Source: Gammaproteobacteria bacterium | GTDB lineage: Bacteria > Pseudomonadota > Gammaproteobacteria > GRL18 | DNA: 10,516 nucleotides | Assembly (NCBI GenBank): GCA_030632625.1 | Contig: DAOVUK010000058.1 | Coordinates: 1-10,516, forward strand | Direction: 5' to 3' | In this document: positions 73 to 7,489 of the stretch, one piece after another | How positions within the stretch are numbered: position 1 is the stretch's first letter | Layout of the letters: every line of letters begins with the position of its first letter | The notes under the pieces: generated by a model | The model's input: the letters and a program-made list of their open reading frames with translations, nothing else | Databases searched by the model: none | Told to the model about the DNA's origin: nothing | Translations under genes and position numbers: made by a program

Positions 73-283
73 TATGATAGGCATTCTTTAAAGAACATGA
101 ATGTAAAGTGTAAAGCAGTTTGGTCAGTTCAAGCTATGCGATAAGTGTCAGAAAAATTTACAAAAATGCTTAATGGATAAAGTGCGTATAAAGTAAAGTT
201 TCATAAAATCAACACGTTTTAATTTATGGTGTGATTTTTGCATGTATTATTTTAATCGGTAAATTAATTAGGGTATAATTCTC

Positions 284-952
284 ATGTCTGAGAACAAAAA
301 AATTACAGTGAATGGCGATGAATTAAATCATCATTCTGATTCATCTGCAGATGAAAAGCGTCGACAAATCCTCAAGGGTTCTTTAGCAGTCCCTCCGGTA
401 GTTATGAGCATCATGGGTAAACCGGCCTTTGGTGGGCATCCACAATGTGGTTTGTCAGGACAATTGTCGGGTAATCTCTCAGACGCTGATGTCGTATGCG
501 GTGGTGAGGGTTGTACACCTGGCTACTATAAAAATCACCGTGCCGATCTTGGGGCCTGGCATCAAGATTTACAACCAGACCTGCTGTATTCCAATGTGTT
601 TGGCATTGATCCTTTTCCAGGTAAAACCCTGGGGCAGGTCATTGGTTATTGCGGAGAGGAACAAGTGGGAGTCGATGATTGTAATCAGAGTCTATTGGGG
701 GCATGCACACCTACATCAGCTTGTGAAAATTTATTTGTCCAGCTGGGGTTTCATTCAGTTGCCGCATTGCAAAACGCAGCTCTTGCCAATGTCAGTTATG
801 ACCTGACTGTGGTAGAAGTGGTGCAGCAAACATATAACGCCTATTACTCTGGGGATAAAAATACGATCGATACCTTCAAAACCGATCTTGATGACTTCAA
901 TAATCAAGGTTGTCCTATGGATGGTGGGAATATAAATTGTAATAAAAAATAA
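284..952 (+). CDS. Tat-like exported Cys-rich protein with CTPGYYKNH domain; candidate HPr-rel-A substrate
   Basis: 222 residues. Residues 1-25 are polar and acidic with two His and several Ser. A Tat-like motif follows (KRRQILKG, 25-32), then a short hydrophobic stretch to about 44 and a plausible cleavage region near PAFG (47-50). The mature part has nine Cys (55, 72, 77, 123, 133, 141, 147, 210, 219), suggesting disulfides outside the cytoplasm. From 76 on it carries a motif I recognise from many secreted bacterial proteins: CTPGYYKNH (usually CTPGYWKNH), an FG segment, a later AALQNAA helix and a closing GCP. The function of that domain is not known to me. The gene heads a cassette of PqqD-like chaperone, HprK-like kinase and nucleotidyltransferase, so I infer it is the protein they act on. 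The ATG at 284 follows AGGG at 270-273, a weak ribosome site 10 nt away. Sec export or lipid anchoring are not excluded. Confidence 0.85.
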   Translation: MSENKKITVNGDELNHHSDSSADEKRRQILKGSLAVPPVVMSIMGKPAFGGHPQCGLSGQLSGNLSDADVVCGGEGCTPGYYKNHRADLGAWHQDLQPDLLYSNVFGIDPFPGKTLGQVIGYCGEEQVGVDDCNQSLLGACTPTSACENLFVQLGFHSVAALQNAALANVSYDLTVVEVVQQTYNAYYSGDKNTIDTFKTDLDDFNNQGCPMDGGNINCNKK

Positions 953-953
953 C

Positions 954-968
954 GATAAGCAAATTATC
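954..968 (+). other. Short hairpin between substrate-like gene and pqqD-like gene
   Basis: GATAA (954-958) and TTATC (964-968) can pair around a 5-nt loop. The hairpin fills almost the whole 19-nt gap before the ATG at 972. It is AT-rich and weak and has no following T run, so it is not a classical terminator. It could at most affect translation of the next gene. Confidence 0.25.
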
Positions 969-971
969 ATT

Positions 972-1271
972 ATGAAAAACAGGCCATGGACAACTGATAG
1001 TCGATTCCCCATTTTATGGTCTCAGTGGGATAAAGGCAGAGAAAATGAAAGTTCTGTCATTTACCACATGGGCACAGGTGATACGCACCAGCTGGATGTT
1101 TTGTCTGCTATGATTTTGCAAATTGTTGAATCTGGACCTGTAAGCACAAATGAGCTTGCCAGGCGCTTATCGACACAAAGTGGCCTGGATGCGGATGACG
1201 ACTTTTATCTTTATATTGAGAATACACTTTCCCGATTTCAACAGTTAAATTTAATAAGCCATGCAGTATGA
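972..1271 (+). CDS. HPr-rel-A system PqqD-like peptide chaperone
   Basis: 99 residues, a normal size for a stand-alone PqqD-like domain. PqqD relatives are small winged-helix proteins that bind leader peptides and present them to modifying enzymes (the RiPP recognition element fold). The protein has the features of the HPr-rel-A branch: an early Trp (W6), a second Trp region (16-19), the block GTGDTHQLD (34-42), a helix with ILQIVE, a second short helix (NELARRL, 59-65) and a C-terminal helix ending in LNLIS. It lies 19 nt after the exported protein and 7 nt before the HprK-like kinase. I infer it binds the N-terminal leader of the 284-952 product, although its partner cannot be read from sequence. 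No Shine-Dalgarno is evident. Confidence 0.85.
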   Translation: MKNRPWTTDSRFPILWSQWDKGRENESSVIYHMGTGDTHQLDVLSAMILQIVESGPVSTNELARRLSTQSGLDADDDFYLYIENTLSRFQQLNLISHAV

Positions 1272-1282
1272 TTTTTAAGTGA
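1268..1282 (+). promoter_or_regulatory. Four-codon minicistron bridging the pqqD-like stop and the kinase start
   Basis: The stop of the PqqD-like gene (TGA, 1269-1271) overlaps an ATG at 1268. That ATG opens a frame of four codons ending in TGA at 1280-1282, which in turn overlaps the GTG start of the kinase (1279-1281). Ribosomes could thus be handed from one gene to the next by two stop/start overlaps. This is a reading of the sequence only; chance is possible because such short frames are common. Confidence 0.3.
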
Positions 1283-2184
1283 TAATTTCTTCCTTACCTT
1301 TTAAACAATTCAAAGATCGTGTTTCGAGCAGTGGTATATCTTTTCGAGTCGGTCCTTTTAGTGTAAATGTTCGCTCTTCTATTGATACTGTCATCAGCGG
1401 AATTTATCTGCTCTATAGTAATTACCACATACTGGATGATGATTTTATTGACTTCTGGATTCATCTTCAACAGCCAAAAAACTTACGGCGTTGGTACAGG
1501 CCGCAAGTCGTATTCAATTTGGATGGGTTTCAGCCTTTTAAACCACTGCCTCTGTCACAGGCGTTTGCTTTTTTTGAATGGGGCTTAAATTGGGCCGTTG
1601 CCAAGCACGCTAATCGTTATCTGCTCCTTCATTCCGCTGTTCTGGAAAAAAATAACCGGGCACTTATTTTGCCTGCGCCTCCGGGCTCAGGCAAAAGCAC
1701 GCTTTGTGCCGCCTTGTCTTTAAGTGGCTGGCGTTTATTGACGGATGAAATGGCCTTGACTCAATTATCGGATGGTATGATACGACCCTTAGCCAGACCT
1801 GTCAGTTTAAAAAATGAATCCATCAATATTATCAGGGCGTTTTCTAAAGAGGCAGTTATTGGCAATATAGCCAAAGATACCACTAAGGGGGATGTTGCTC
1901 ATTTAAAAGCGGATAAGCAGGCGGTGAGTGATCAGTCTTGTCCTGCGCCGCAATGGCTTGTTTCGCCTGTATATACCCCTGAGGCTAAAGCTGTCCTGGA
2001 GCCTATGGATAAAGCAGAAATGTTTATGCATACTGTCAATAATTGTTTCAATTATAATGTACTTGGTCCAGATGCGTTTCATGCGACCACACGTTTAGTT
2101 GAGCAGTGTGATTGTTATCATTTTAGCTATAGCCAGCTGGATGATGCAATAGGACTATTTGATAAGTTAGCATTTGAGTCATAA
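1279..2184 (+). CDS. HprK-related kinase A
   Basis: 301 residues, related to the C-terminal kinase domain of HPr kinase/phosphorylase. Visible family features in order: a start region with FRVGPFSVNVRS (22-33) and a YSNYH block, RPQVVFNLDGF (74-84), EWGLNW (100-105), a conserved His (LLLHSAV, 116-122), the Walker A loop APPGSGKST (133-141), then GWRLLTDEMAL (150-160) in the place of the acidic Walker B-like motif of HprK, KGDVAHLK (203-210) and a PQWLVSP block. The start is a GTG; an in-frame TAA sits directly before it, so no longer frame exists, and the N-terminus fits the family. Relatives of HprK phosphorylate the C-terminal Ser of some lasso peptides, so a Ser/Thr kinase acting on a peptide or exported protein is a reasonable inference; the true substrate is unknown. 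Confidence 0.9.
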   Translation: MIISSLPFKQFKDRVSSSGISFRVGPFSVNVRSSIDTVISGIYLLYSNYHILDDDFIDFWIHLQQPKNLRRWYRPQVVFNLDGFQPFKPLPLSQAFAFFEWGLNWAVAKHANRYLLLHSAVLEKNNRALILPAPPGSGKSTLCAALSLSGWRLLTDEMALTQLSDGMIRPLARPVSLKNESINIIRAFSKEAVIGNIAKDTTKGDVAHLKADKQAVSDQSCPAPQWLVSPVYTPEAKAVLEPMDKAEMFMHTVNNCFNYNVLGPDAFHATTRLVEQCDCYHFSYSQLDDAIGLFDKLAFES

Positions 2185-2187
2185 TTG

Positions 2188-3258
2188 ATGAATAGGCAGA
2201 ATCGTATTATTCAAGTGGTTAAAAATCCGGAGATTGTCAAAACATATGATCTTCGTGCTTTTGATCTGTTAAAACGTCAGGCACAGGCAGCTGATCTGCT
2301 TGCATATCTTCAATTCCTATTTGAGCAGCATGACCTATTGGCGGAGTTACCGGATAAGTTTCTGGAACACATGGAAACGGCCAGATATTATGCCAATGCT
2401 CAACACCGTGCAGTTTTGTGGGAAGTTGACAGAATTGAAAAGGCACTTAGTTCATGTGATATCCCTGTCATTTTTTTAAAAGGGGCTGCCTACCAGTTAT
2501 CTCAGATACCCTTTTCCAAAACTCGCATCTTTTCTGATATTGATATACTGGTACCTAAACAGAAGTTGGAAAGTGTAGAAAACGCTCTATCTCGTAATGG
2601 CTGGTCAATGGGGAAGGTGAGTGCGTATGATCAAAGATATTATCGACAGTGGATGCATGAAATACCACCCATGCGGCACTTAAGACGTAATACTGTTATT
2701 GATGTGCATCATACCATCTTGCCGGAAACTTCCAGACTGCACCCTGATCCCGGCCAGTTAATGTCTGAATCTGTAAAAGTCCCTGATTGGGATAATGTGT
2801 TTGTATTGGCACCTGTGGATATGGTTTTGCATAGCGCAACGCATCTTTTGCATGAAGGCGAATTTCATCATGCTTTGCGGGATTTGGTCGATCTTCATGA
2901 AATGATAAAATTCTTTTCCACAGAATCAATATTCTGGCAGCAATTGTATGAACGCGCAAAGCAACAGCAACTGTTAAGGCCTCTTTACTATGCTATCCTG
3001 TTTATAAATAAGCTGTTTGGTACATCTATTCCTCAGTGGTTTATGCAAAAGATAGAAAAAAGCAGAGCTATATTTCCTATTAACAGCATAATGACTGAAT
3101 TATTTCTAATAGCGAGTACTTCGATTCATGACAGTTGTACTTTGCCGGGTAATACTCTTGCTAGCTGGCTATTGTATATAAGAGGGCATTATTTACGCAT
3201 GCCTTTATATTTGCTTGTACCACATTTGCTTAGAAAAAGTTTTGTTTCTGAAAAATAG
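2188..3258 (+). CDS. Nucleotidyltransferase family protein (PF14907-like) of the HPr-rel-A cassette
   Basis: 356 residues from the ATG at 2188; a TTG at 2185 directly before it is possible but less likely. The start comes 3 nt after the kinase stop, which indicates co-translation. The N-terminal third is helical. The catalytic part follows: IFLKG (95-99), then FSDIDILV (115-122), the paired acidic residues expected for metal binding in the polymerase-beta nucleotidyltransferase fold, and later VIDVHH, a third conserved block. The C-terminal third is helical with hydrophobic stretches. This family is often found next to HprK-like kinases and PqqD-like chaperones, including in some peptide-modifying gene clusters. 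I infer transfer of a nucleotide or nucleotide-derived group to the substrate, perhaps onto a phosphorylated residue; the donor and acceptor cannot be read from sequence. Confidence 0.85.
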   Translation: MNRQNRIIQVVKNPEIVKTYDLRAFDLLKRQAQAADLLAYLQFLFEQHDLLAELPDKFLEHMETARYYANAQHRAVLWEVDRIEKALSSCDIPVIFLKGAAYQLSQIPFSKTRIFSDIDILVPKQKLESVENALSRNGWSMGKVSAYDQRYYRQWMHEIPPMRHLRRNTVIDVHHTILPETSRLHPDPGQLMSESVKVPDWDNVFVLAPVDMVLHSATHLLHEGEFHHALRDLVDLHEMIKFFSTESIFWQQLYERAKQQQLLRPLYYAILFINKLFGTSIPQWFMQKIEKSRAIFPINSIMTELFLIASTSIHDSCTLPGNTLASWLLYIRGHYLRMPLYLLVPHLLRKSFVSEK

Positions 3259-3275: not shown

Positions 3276-4073
3276 ATGAAGAATCTCCTTATTATTTGTT
3301 ACTTAATTTTTAGCCTGATTGGTTTCTCCAATGGTGTAAGGGCTATTCCACTAAACGATTTACCTCATGATAATGAGTTATCTCTGCAGGCTTCTGACTT
3401 TAATATGTTGTTAGATCAGACTCCATCTAAAAAGCAATTGTTCTTATCAGTGAAAGAAACTGAGAAGAATGATAGTTTGCTGAGGTACTCATCAGTATCA
3501 GCAAGTTCTTTGAAAAAAAAACAGGTAATATTGAAAGATGAAGAACTGACATCAGGTGATGAAACTGATTTTTATCTATTTGAACAGGAAGAACTGGATG
3601 CACAGAAACCCGGCCTGGAGCTATATCAGACATTGGCTCCAATGCTGTCACCCGAATTGAAAAAAGATGCAAAAAAAATCTGGGCAGAAACTGCTGATTT
3701 TAGAGAGGCCATTGATTTTTCTACGAAAGATTCTGACTCAAAAGAGTTGATTTTACAACAATCATCAAAAGAAATGACCTTGCTTAAAGGCAAAACATTA
3801 GAAGAGCTATCCAATAAAAATCTACCTCCTGCTCTTTATGATAAGAAAGAACCTGATAAAGCGATGGTCAGGGAATTATTTGATGGTATATATGATTTAC
3901 TCAAAAATGCGTTTCTTATTATTGCCGGTATTTTGATTTTAGGGAAAACAATCAGTTTTATTGTAAAAAAAATCATTGCAGGCAGGGAGAGACGAAAAAA
4001 GAGGCAAGCCAGAAGGCATAGTAAAAGACATAGTAAAAGACATAGAAAAAAACGTCGGCGCACTTATGCCTGA
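3276..4073 (+). CDS. Unrecognised exported protein with C-terminal membrane helix and Arg/Lys-rich tail
   Basis: 265 residues; I recognise no family. Residues 1-23 form a good Sec signal peptide (hydrophobic core from L4 to about G16, likely cut after VRA). Residues 24-200 are polar, acidic and Ser/Lys/Glu-rich with predicted helices and no Cys after the signal. One membrane helix spans about 211-230 (AFLIIAGILIL). The last 35 residues are almost all Lys, Arg and His, with two HSKR repeats and a closing RRRTYA. Signal peptide, C-terminal helix and basic tail resemble sorting signals of the PEP-CTERM kind, but there is no PEP motif at the expected place (KKEPDK at 190-195 is the nearest) and the tail is much longer. 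By the positive-inside rule the tail should stay in the cytoplasm. It starts 17 nt after the nucleotidyltransferase gene, so it probably belongs to the same operon. Confidence 0.75.
   Translation: MKNLLIICYLIFSLIGFSNGVRAIPLNDLPHDNELSLQASDFNMLLDQTPSKKQLFLSVKETEKNDSLLRYSSVSASSLKKKQVILKDEELTSGDETDFYLFEQEELDAQKPGLELYQTLAPMLSPELKKDAKKIWAETADFREAIDFSTKDSDSKELILQQSSKEMTLLKGKTLEELSNKNLPPALYDKKEPDKAMVRELFDGIYDLLKNAFLIIAGILILGKTISFIVKKIIAGRERRKKRQARRHSKRHSKRHRKKRRRTYA
4017..4052 (+). repeat. 12-bp tandem repeat, about three units, inside the basic tail codons
   Basis: CATAGTAAAAGA occurs twice in a row (4017-4028, 4029-4040), followed by a diverged copy (4041-4052). Each perfect unit is four codons and encodes His-Ser-Lys-Arg, so gain or loss of a unit keeps the reading frame and changes only the length of the tail. 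Confidence 0.85.
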
Positions 4074-4133: not shown

Positions 4134-4298
4134 TGCGATCAATTTACCAATTTGCGTCATCTGAAATTGAATATATCCAGAAATTACTCTAGAATTAGTT
4201 TATTGATAGGCTTAATGACTGATGTTATCAGGTATGTTAGTAATCACAGAAAACTTAATCTTTTATTTTTTTGAACCCCATTGATGTATCAAACTAGT

Positions 4299-5486
4299 AT
4301 GTATAAAGAATATTATAAATTAAGAGACAATCCTTTTCAGATGACGCCTGATCCGCGTATCTTTTTTGCCAGTAAAGGGCATAAAAGAGCACTTTCTTAT
4401 CTTCAATATGGTTTGAGTCAGGGGGAGGGATTTATTGTAGTTACGGGTGATATAGGTACTGGTAAAACAACGATCGTAAAAAATCTTATCGCCGGTCTTG
4501 ATCATCAGACCTATATTGCTAAACAGCTGGTCACGACCCATCTGGGCGAGCATGATTTGATGGAAATGATTTGTGAATCCTTTGAATTGATTTCCAGAGG
4601 GCTTACCAAGGCCGCTTTATTGAATCAGTTTAAAGCATTTTTAAATTCGGCCCATAAACTGGGACGGCGTGTCGTTCTGGTTGTGGATGAAGTACAGAAC
4701 CTGCCTACTAAGACGGTTGAAGAACTCAGAATGCTGTCTAATTTTCAAATCGATAATAAGCCTCTGATTCAAAGTTTTCTCGTTGGTCAGAAAGAATTTA
4801 TTACTACCTTACAAGATAGTTCGATGGAGCAGCTGCGCCAGCGTGTTATTGCTTCCTGCCATTTAGGCCCCCTGAAAGAACATGAAACAAACCTTTACGT
4901 AAATTACCGTTTAAAAGCGGCTGGCTGGGCAGGAGGCCCTTTATTTGACGATGCCGCGTTGAAATTGGTGCATAAGCTGACGGAAGGTGTGCCTAGAAGA
5001 ATTAATGTGTTTTGTGACCGGATTTTGTTGTTTGGATATCTTGAAGAAATCAGCTTTTTTACAATAGAGCACATTCAAACCGTTGCAGATGAATTGGCAG
5101 AGGAGATCACCAGCCCGCTTAAATTGCATGAAGAGAAAGAGGCAACACAGATTTTAAGGCAGGTACCGCCGAATAATATTAATCGCACTGCCAAACAACC
5201 TGCGGCAGCAGGTATGAATGGTCAGGTACTGCCAATGGCAACTTCTGCGGATGCGTCTCACCCGAAAGTCGAGGAACTGAAAAAAAAGAATGTCAGTGCT
5301 GCAAATATAACCGGGTTAACTGAAACAAAAATAAGTCAATGTAAACCGGTAGAAAAAAAAGTCATTTCTGTAAATCCAGTATTATCTTCTGATTTTGTGG
5401 ATATTGAGGATACGATTAAGGATTTTGAAAGCCGGGTTGAAAAAGAAATTGAGTCATTTAAAAAATCACTGGACAAAAAGTTTTAA
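4299..5486 (+). CDS. XrtA/PEP-CTERM locus-type putative secretion ATPase (ExeA-like AAA)
   Basis: 395 residues from the ATG at 4299. An in-frame ATG at 4284 (and a TTG at 4281) would add a few residues, but this family usually begins MYxxxYxL, as MYKEYYKLRDNPF does here. The AAA ATPase core shows PDPRIFF (17-23), the Walker A loop GDIGTGKT (50-57), Walker B VVLVVDEVQNL (125-135), a GQKEF block (163-167), LRQRV (179-183) and the GVPRRIN sensor-2 motif (230-236). Relatives sit in exopolysaccharide loci that encode exosortase and PEP-CTERM proteins and are thought to power or regulate polymer export; the exact role is not established. The C-terminal 120 residues are low-complexity with a final charged helix (from about 365), less conserved in the family. 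Neither an exosortase nor PEP-CTERM proteins are seen in this window; downstream are nucleotide-sugar genes. Confidence 0.88.
   Translation: MYKEYYKLRDNPFQMTPDPRIFFASKGHKRALSYLQYGLSQGEGFIVVTGDIGTGKTTIVKNLIAGLDHQTYIAKQLVTTHLGEHDLMEMICESFELISRGLTKAALLNQFKAFLNSAHKLGRRVVLVVDEVQNLPTKTVEELRMLSNFQIDNKPLIQSFLVGQKEFITTLQDSSMEQLRQRVIASCHLGPLKEHETNLYVNYRLKAAGWAGGPLFDDAALKLVHKLTEGVPRRINVFCDRILLFGYLEEISFFTIEHIQTVADELAEEITSPLKLHEEKEATQILRQVPPNNINRTAKQPAAAGMNGQVLPMATSADASHPKVEELKKKNVSAANITGLTETKISQCKPVEKKVISVNPVLSSDFVDIEDTIKDFESRVEKEIESFKKSLDKKF

Positions 5487-7093: not shown

Positions 7094-7489
<396 letters not shown>

Follow-up and report, generated by a model that had tools for sequence, protein, structure and literature searches.

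A kinase and nucleotidyltransferase gene set that may tag a leader-bearing secreted protein, often in bacteria with exosortase A

A complete 10,516-base contig from the 3.36-Mb draft genome of a gammaproteobacterium (GCA_030632625.1, DAOVUK010000058.1), called the window below, carries in its first part four genes in the same direction, which encode a putatively secreted protein with a leader (ORF1, for open reading frame 1), a PqqD-family peptide chaperone, an HprK-related kinase A and a nucleotidyltransferase (NTase). In many bacteria, kinase, PqqD-like carrier and NTase adjoin one leader protein with a fixed Ser motif. The cassette may thus represent a poorly explored route by which a secreted protein receives a chemical tag, frequently in bacteria with the exosortase A (XrtA) biofilm system. 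The leader proteins form two classes, each with a short Ser motif of its own, and the kinase phylogeny divides in the same way; we regard this co-segregation of kinase and substrate class as the strongest argument for an action of the kinase on the adjacent gene product. With two substrate families, each marked by a short Ser motif, a gene set known so far by name becomes open to direct experiment. The system would also carry phospho-tailoring of the lasso type over to secreted proteins and would add a new, modified component to the exosortase/PEP-CTERM biofilm machinery.

The cassette and its linkage in other genomes

All four genes lie on the forward strand: ORF1 (222 aa, 284..952), a substrate candidate of the class termed A below; PqqD_rel_X (99 aa, 972..1271); the kinase (301 aa, GTG start, 1279..2184); and the NTP_transf_5 NTase (2188..3258), with intergenic gaps of 19, 7 and 3 nt. 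The last gap takes the ATG at 2188 as the NTase start, while a mechanical list of open reading frames (ORFs) begins this frame at the TTG at 2185. A sequence-only reading of this DNA had described the same cassette with the same three enzyme families, and both the ORF calls and the profile scores bear it out: 49.2 bits for the chaperone (TIGR04353, cut-off 35), 390 bits for the kinase (TIGR04352, cut-off 200) and 180 bits for the NTase (PF14907, cut-off 31.2). By its kinase and chaperone, both over curated cut-offs, the window is a member of the HPr-rel-A system of NCBIfam, and since NCBIfam already names this kinase-PqqD pairing, there is no novelty in the enzyme set. No NCBIfam or Pfam model searched accounts for the substrate families or their motifs: ORF1 matches nothing in NCBIfam at E 0.1 and all its Pfam matches stay below threshold, none of 16 leader proteins (the window's included) reaches any NCBIfam family cut-off, and none of the 11 tried against Pfam is over cut-off there. 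A literature search, with most subscription journals outside its coverage, found no mention of HprK-related kinase or HPr-rel-A, no reaction or substrate for HprK-related kinase A, and no paper combining exosortase and PqqD; the papers that pair PqqD with HPr kinase have titles concerning lasso peptides.

When GTDB genome contigs were scanned with ten kinases, among the best 80 of at least 532 confirmed loci (numbered here with L) PqqD precedes the kinase in all 80 and the NTase follows it in 79, so that this gene order is not due to chance; one locus, L034, duplicates the record of L005. In an even sample of genomes of the class, the kinase occurs in 41 of 369 genomes, with one match each at E 1e-30. 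Apart from the window there are 40 carriers, of which 39 have a recognised PqqD. An NTase is likewise present in 39 when the whole fetched region, reaching up to about 6 kb to either side, is counted, and stands directly downstream on the same strand in 33. A gene for a leader with paired arginines (RR), consistently present beside these kinases elsewhere, was the check on which the sequence-only reading had staked its case, and the reading passed it: a leader-profile match (E up to 10) stands upstream of the kinase in 39 of the same 40 loci, and the sole miss, L187, begins at a contig end. In a phylum sample the kinase occurs in 61 of 398 genomes; 40 of these carriers were hand-picked to spread over families, and the remaining 21 include four from other sets. 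L240 and the short loci L241-L258, most of which were doubled by L259 onwards, were excluded from later counts, and loci without a leader-profile match contributed no ORF1. Each of 16 genomes searched with the class A profile has one leader protein among the matches listed, and multiple substrates acted on in trans were not seen there.

Leader, motifs and two substrate classes

The leader or signal of ORF1 occupies residues 25-50 (KRRQILKGSLAVPPVVMSIMGKPAFG; 356..433, forward strand) and is conserved in both alignments of leader proteins, termed A3 and A2. R27 is invariant and R26 is kept in at least 90% of A3 (48 rows, window included), and RR is present in 38/38 rows of A2, whose rows were picked using the RR rule. 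The consensus, which is not strict, reads [S]RR-x-[LF]-x-K-x-x-x-x-A-P-V-x-x-T-L-x-S-R-P-x-x-[AG], and RR-x-[FLIM] occurs in 139 of 143 leader proteins, a count for which RR was partly selected. ORF1 is probably exported, because it combines R26-R27 with a short hydrophobic stretch and its relatives have the same leader. Thus, of the exported Cys-rich protein claimed earlier, the Cys-richness stands as a count of 9 Cys, and export as a prediction.

Directly behind the leader lies the motif C55-x-x-S58-G-x-x-S62-G-N-x-S66 (446..481, forward strand), also conserved in both alignments. C55, S58, S62 and C72 are invariant and S66 is kept in at least 90% of the 48 rows of A3, and the motif C, S and S are invariant across the 38 rows of A2. 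In a more diverse alignment of 87 leader proteins, taken from scan loci, the window and the window's relatives, the three motif serines are kept in 84/87, 83/86 and 67/86; five ORF1s of this alignment were hand-set, and its RR frequencies are biased, its rows having been picked using the RR rule. The motif counts exclude L034 (the duplicate), L103, in which ORF1 was not found, and L033, whose leader is visible but for which the rule applied gave no ORF start. The Cys-to-Ser spacing varies from one to three residues in class A.

In class A, leader and motif are mostly followed by a Cys-rich 'CTPGYW' body, which in ORF1 spans residues about 70-210 (491..913, forward strand) and is predicted by AlphaFold2 to be helical, with a block mean predicted local distance difference test score (pLDDT) of 82-97 over residues 71-210. 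Among 113 relatives of the body domain, none of the 61 that exceed 250 aa, which lack the leader, carries the SGN motif, in contrast to 42 of the 46 with leader-protein size (190-250 aa, the window's own ORF1 included). The motif therefore travels with the leader, not with the body domain. One of the four motif-less proteins of this size, P0038, has the leader and a variant of the motif; the six shorter relatives lack the motif. The body itself appears to be an unnamed Cys-rich helical domain: no confident structural match was found in PDB (best E 4.4) or BFVD (best E 1.2), nor a solved relative of ORF1 (best E 0.56). By eye, many of the long 'CTPGYW' proteins (among P0039-P0113) have a lipoprotein-like start. 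ORF1 was itself considered as a lipoprotein and rejected: by eye, the distance from the likely signal cleavage site to the conserved Cys ranges between proteins from 0 to about 20 residues, and a Cys so variably placed is not a lipobox Cys. Nor is ORF1 a PEP-CTERM protein, as its C-terminus (NNQGCPMDGGNINCNKK) has no sorting tail and no PEP-CTERM family of NCBIfam or Pfam matches it.

The partners of class B have the same kind of leader without the body domain and without the SGN motif. Instead, near their C-terminus, they carry a tail C-[WLF]-x-S-[LFI], typically C-[WLF]-[TAS]-S-[LFI]; in 35/41 the Ser is followed by a further two to nine residues. This tail was found in 39 of 48 B-side proteins, against 0.37 expected as the mean of shuffles that preserve single-letter composition only, and in none of 95 A-side proteins, and the N-terminal motif of class A occurs in 80/95 A-side and 0/48 B-side proteins. 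Class B proteins are mostly shorter, with a median of 115 residues behind the leader, compared with 168 in class A, and the shortest has 74 aa in all. A substrate of the size named in the sequence-only reading (220 residues, 222 aa by our count) is thus not required.

The sides just named are those of the kinase phylogeny. After thinning of kinases with at least 80% identity (176 to 143), a quick IQ-TREE tree built from the kinases alone splits by substrate class without crossing (143 rows, SH-like approximate likelihood ratio test 92), where thirteen class labels, marked 'A*', were assigned by eye and 11 rows, eight of them on the B side, match neither substrate pattern. With pattern labels alone, 79 class A and 40 class B rows again divide without crossing. 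Both classes occur within the window's own bacterial family, where L006 and L009 belong to B and L004, L005, L010 and the window to A. These results bear on the alternative that kinase and NTase modify a lipid, a sugar or another protein, and that ORF1 is a separate secreted protein merely co-transcribed with them. Indeed, the link between kinase and ORF1 is indirect, the substrate of HprK proper is HPr, and some cassettes have sugar-transfer genes of the XrtA system nearby. This alternative is nevertheless decidedly unlikely in our estimate, as the kinases divide by the class of the neighbouring protein, each of the 16 genomes has one leader protein among the matches listed, the motif is found only with the leader, and the set includes PqqD, which excerpts of one paper describe as a leader binder in systems for ribosomally synthesized and post-translationally modified peptides (PMC7533575).

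The proposed reaction and its likeness to lasso peptide tailoring

The kinase has a PEPCK/HprK-type P-loop fold, although its identity to PEPCK is only about 10%. HprK chains were absent among the matches listed (50 VIA-align rows), and a Pfam search of the window kinase gave no HprK family match up to E 1. Its candidate catalytic residues are H118, the Walker A sequence G136-x-GKST and D156-E157, which aligns with the D-D of HprK; H118, K139, D156 and E157 are invariant in 143 kinases. In the NTase, K98-G99, D117-x-D119 and D172 are invariant (alignment A5, 31 rows), and a solved relative was not found (best E 0.91).

The reading that we favour, and consider reasonably probable, is that of a one-substrate tailoring system, in which leader-guided Ser phosphorylation and decoration by the NTase would be followed by export of the type known as twin-arginine translocation (Tat) and a role in exopolysaccharide or biofilm. 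First, the ORF1 leader would double as a Tat-like signal, and the PqqD-like protein would hold it and deliver the substrate. Second, the kinase would phosphorylate a motif Ser, in C-x-x-S-G-x-x-S-G-N-x-S after the signal in class A or in C-x-x-S near the C-terminus in class B. Third, the PF14907 NTase would add a group to the phosphate, either a hexose or a nucleotide. Finally, the modified ORF1 would be exported, probably by Tat after modification in the cytoplasm, and act outside the cell in an exopolysaccharide-matrix programme of sigma54, PrsK-PrsR and XrtA. From linkage, leader, motifs, kinase-substrate co-segregation, catalytic residues and XrtA co-occurrence, all observed by computation, we infer the binding partners, the reaction and its site, the export route and the role.

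The closest precedents come from lasso peptides (paeninodin with PadeK/ThcoK, pseudomycoidin with PsmK/PsmN), whose tailoring has an HprK-type kinase, a PqqD-type (B1) leader binder and an NTase in common with the cassette. According to parts of two reviews, the HprK-like PsmK phosphorylates the C-terminal Ser of pseudomycoidin and PsmN, annotated as an NTase, puts one or two hexoses on the phosphoserine (PMC8498205, PMC9266682). Lasso kinases have His-Lys-Asp-Asp as catalytic residues in the part of one of these reviews that deals with them (PMC9266682), and the PqqD-type B1 protein of lasso clusters binds the leader in the excerpts of another paper (PMC7533575). The likely target of class B, a Ser near the C-terminus, is similar to that of lasso kinases, whereas the motif of class A lies behind the leader; in both classes the substrate protein has a leader that resembles an export signal. 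The sequence-only reading had proposed tailoring of a whole secreted protein without lasso cyclase or leader protease. This fits class A, and neither a lasso cyclase nor a B2 leader protease was recognised by NCBIfam or Pfam among the ten proteins of the 10.5-kb window. At class B loci, two AsnB-like neighbours were scanned as lasso cyclase candidates and rejected; they score 287 (L269:293-2197) and 251 bits (L262:1898-3805) against a cut-off of 525 for the cyclase model and are XrtA amidotransferases of TIGR03108. Because the same three kinds of protein occur together, the likely target of class B is similarly placed, and the lasso cyclase and protease are missing, the cassette is filed here as an HPr-rel-A system that would work like a lasso tailoring set without being one. 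As a separate matter, amidotransferases of TIGR03108 beside class B cassettes may be a source of false lasso cluster calls.

As for the group added, the sequence-only reading had named nucleotidylation, which is kept here as one option. In this alternative, the NTase transfers adenosine, uridine or cytidine monophosphate (AMP, UMP or CMP), or uses a site of its own, and the end product is a nucleotidylated secreted protein. PF14907 is an NTase family by name and sequence, and the residues K98-G99, D117, D119 and D172, invariant in 31 rows, are those that an active enzyme of the pol-beta type needs. Against this, PsmN, the only NTase described for such clusters in the available parts of the reviews, is reported to add hexoses in vivo, without an in vitro test (PMC8498205, PMC9266682), and a nucleotide as the final group thus seems possible but on the whole unlikely. 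A more different chemistry, in which phosphoserine is an intermediate that is eliminated to dehydroalanine and then forms a thioether ring with the Cys three residues away, as in lanthipeptides, is highly improbable. It would suit the joint conservation of Cys and Ser in both classes and the small size that a class B partner can have (74 aa), but the Cys-Ser spacing of class A varies and the NTase has no obvious role in thioether chemistry; in addition, no lyase was recognised among the annotated recurrent neighbours, a weak point as most recurrent neighbour clusters were left unannotated.

Two more distant HprK-related sets were seen by eye. L015 (499-1838 and 1832-3148) has an RR-leader ORF of 106 aa ahead of kinase and NTase-like ORFs. 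In L013 an NTase-like ORF precedes a longer kinase ORF of 391 aa (913-2088) that may include a fused PqqD part. Sets with leader-guided kinases may extend beyond HPr-rel-A.

The exopolysaccharide context and flanking features

In the class sample, XrtA is over cut-off in 35 of 41 kinase carriers compared with 38 of 328 non-carriers (Fisher p 1.4e-22, with related genomes counted as if independent), and at E 1e-20 in 38/41 compared with 74/328. Near the cassette itself, tblastn, with queries from eight or nine kinds of XrtA-system protein, found such genes within the fetched stretch in 29/79 similarity-chosen, 7/40 class-sample and 21/40 phylum-sample loci and in 5/19 of a fourth set; an earlier count with three kinds of gene had given 20/79, 2/40 and 1/40. 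Local exopolysaccharide linkage was therefore rejected as a defining feature, only 7/40 class-sample loci showing it. What sets ORF1 apart from this system is that it lacks a PEP-CTERM tail and that neither its leader nor its motif is a PEP-CTERM sorting signal.

A sigma54-like -24/-12 site (TGGTGTGATTTTTGCA; 227..242, forward strand) lies 41 nt before the ORF1 start and agrees with 9/12 consensus positions of this promoter type. It is weak evidence alone, because five equally good sites lie elsewhere in the window. Across loci, 100/140 ORF1 genes have a site of at least 9/12 within the 400 nt upstream. Shuffles that keep single-letter composition only give a mean of 8.0 such cases, random stretches taken from these loci a mean of 22.3, and the reverse strand 6. 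In Aquincola, according to part of one paper, floc formation involves a PEP-CTERM gene that depends on RpoN; the authors hold its control by PrsK/PrsR to be probable, although prsK complementation failed (PMC9850573). Because of this precedent, the XrtA co-occurrence and the upstream sites, the cassette probably belongs to the same exopolysaccharide-matrix programme as XrtA, PrsK-PrsR and sigma54. In a more specific version, kinase and NTase would build a sugar-phosphate on the motif Ser of one dedicated secreted protein, and this protein would hold the XrtA-linked exopolysaccharide, as its carrier or anchor, through a phosphodiester. This version is speculative and distinctly unlikely; if true, the matrix of biofilms and flocs would have a covalent protein-polysaccharide link that arises in the cytoplasm and leaves the cell by Tat.

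Several observations weigh against the tailoring system favoured above. The motif patterns are missed by 9/48 B-side and 15/95 A-side proteins, some of which are variants and some uncertain ORF ends, and the fourth catalytic residue of the kinase is Glu (Glu157) in 143/143, compared with Asp in lasso kinases. The leaders score below curated Tat cut-offs wherever a Tat model matched, 11.6 bits with a cut-off of 22.7 for ORF1 in the case of TAT_signal of Pfam. The NTase was not found directly downstream on the same strand in 7/40 class-sample loci, and in the phylum sample profiles built mostly from class A cassettes detect the leader in 33/40 and PqqD in 30/40. Six of the 41 carriers have no XrtA over cut-off, three of them none at E 1e-20, the genomes of the co-occurrence test are related to each other, and local linkage to XrtA or exopolysaccharide genes is patchy in both the class and the phylum sample. 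Finally, the chemistry of every member of the set is inferred.

Downstream of the cassette, a companion gene (3276..4073, forward strand) begins 17 nt after the NTase. By eye, four relatives from the window's bacterial family (L004, L005, L010 and L011) have a comparable ORF behind their NTase. Its product is Lys/Arg-tailed and has no NCBIfam or Pfam match over cut-off. Outside the cassette, the gene for an XrtA/PEP-CTERM system-associated ATPase (4281..5486, forward strand; TIGR03015, 347.5 bits, cut-off 324.5) is followed by TviB- and TviC-like sugar enzymes, the TviC-like match being below its cut-off. Between these Vi-type sugar genes lies a clan AA aspartic protease (7097-7489; TIGR03698, 80 bits). 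Directly ahead of the cassette stands a 23-nt perfect inverted repeat with a 23-nt loop (arms 4-26 and 50-72), which we take to resemble a repetitive extragenic palindromic (REP) or miniature inverted-repeat transposable element (MITE) type of sequence.

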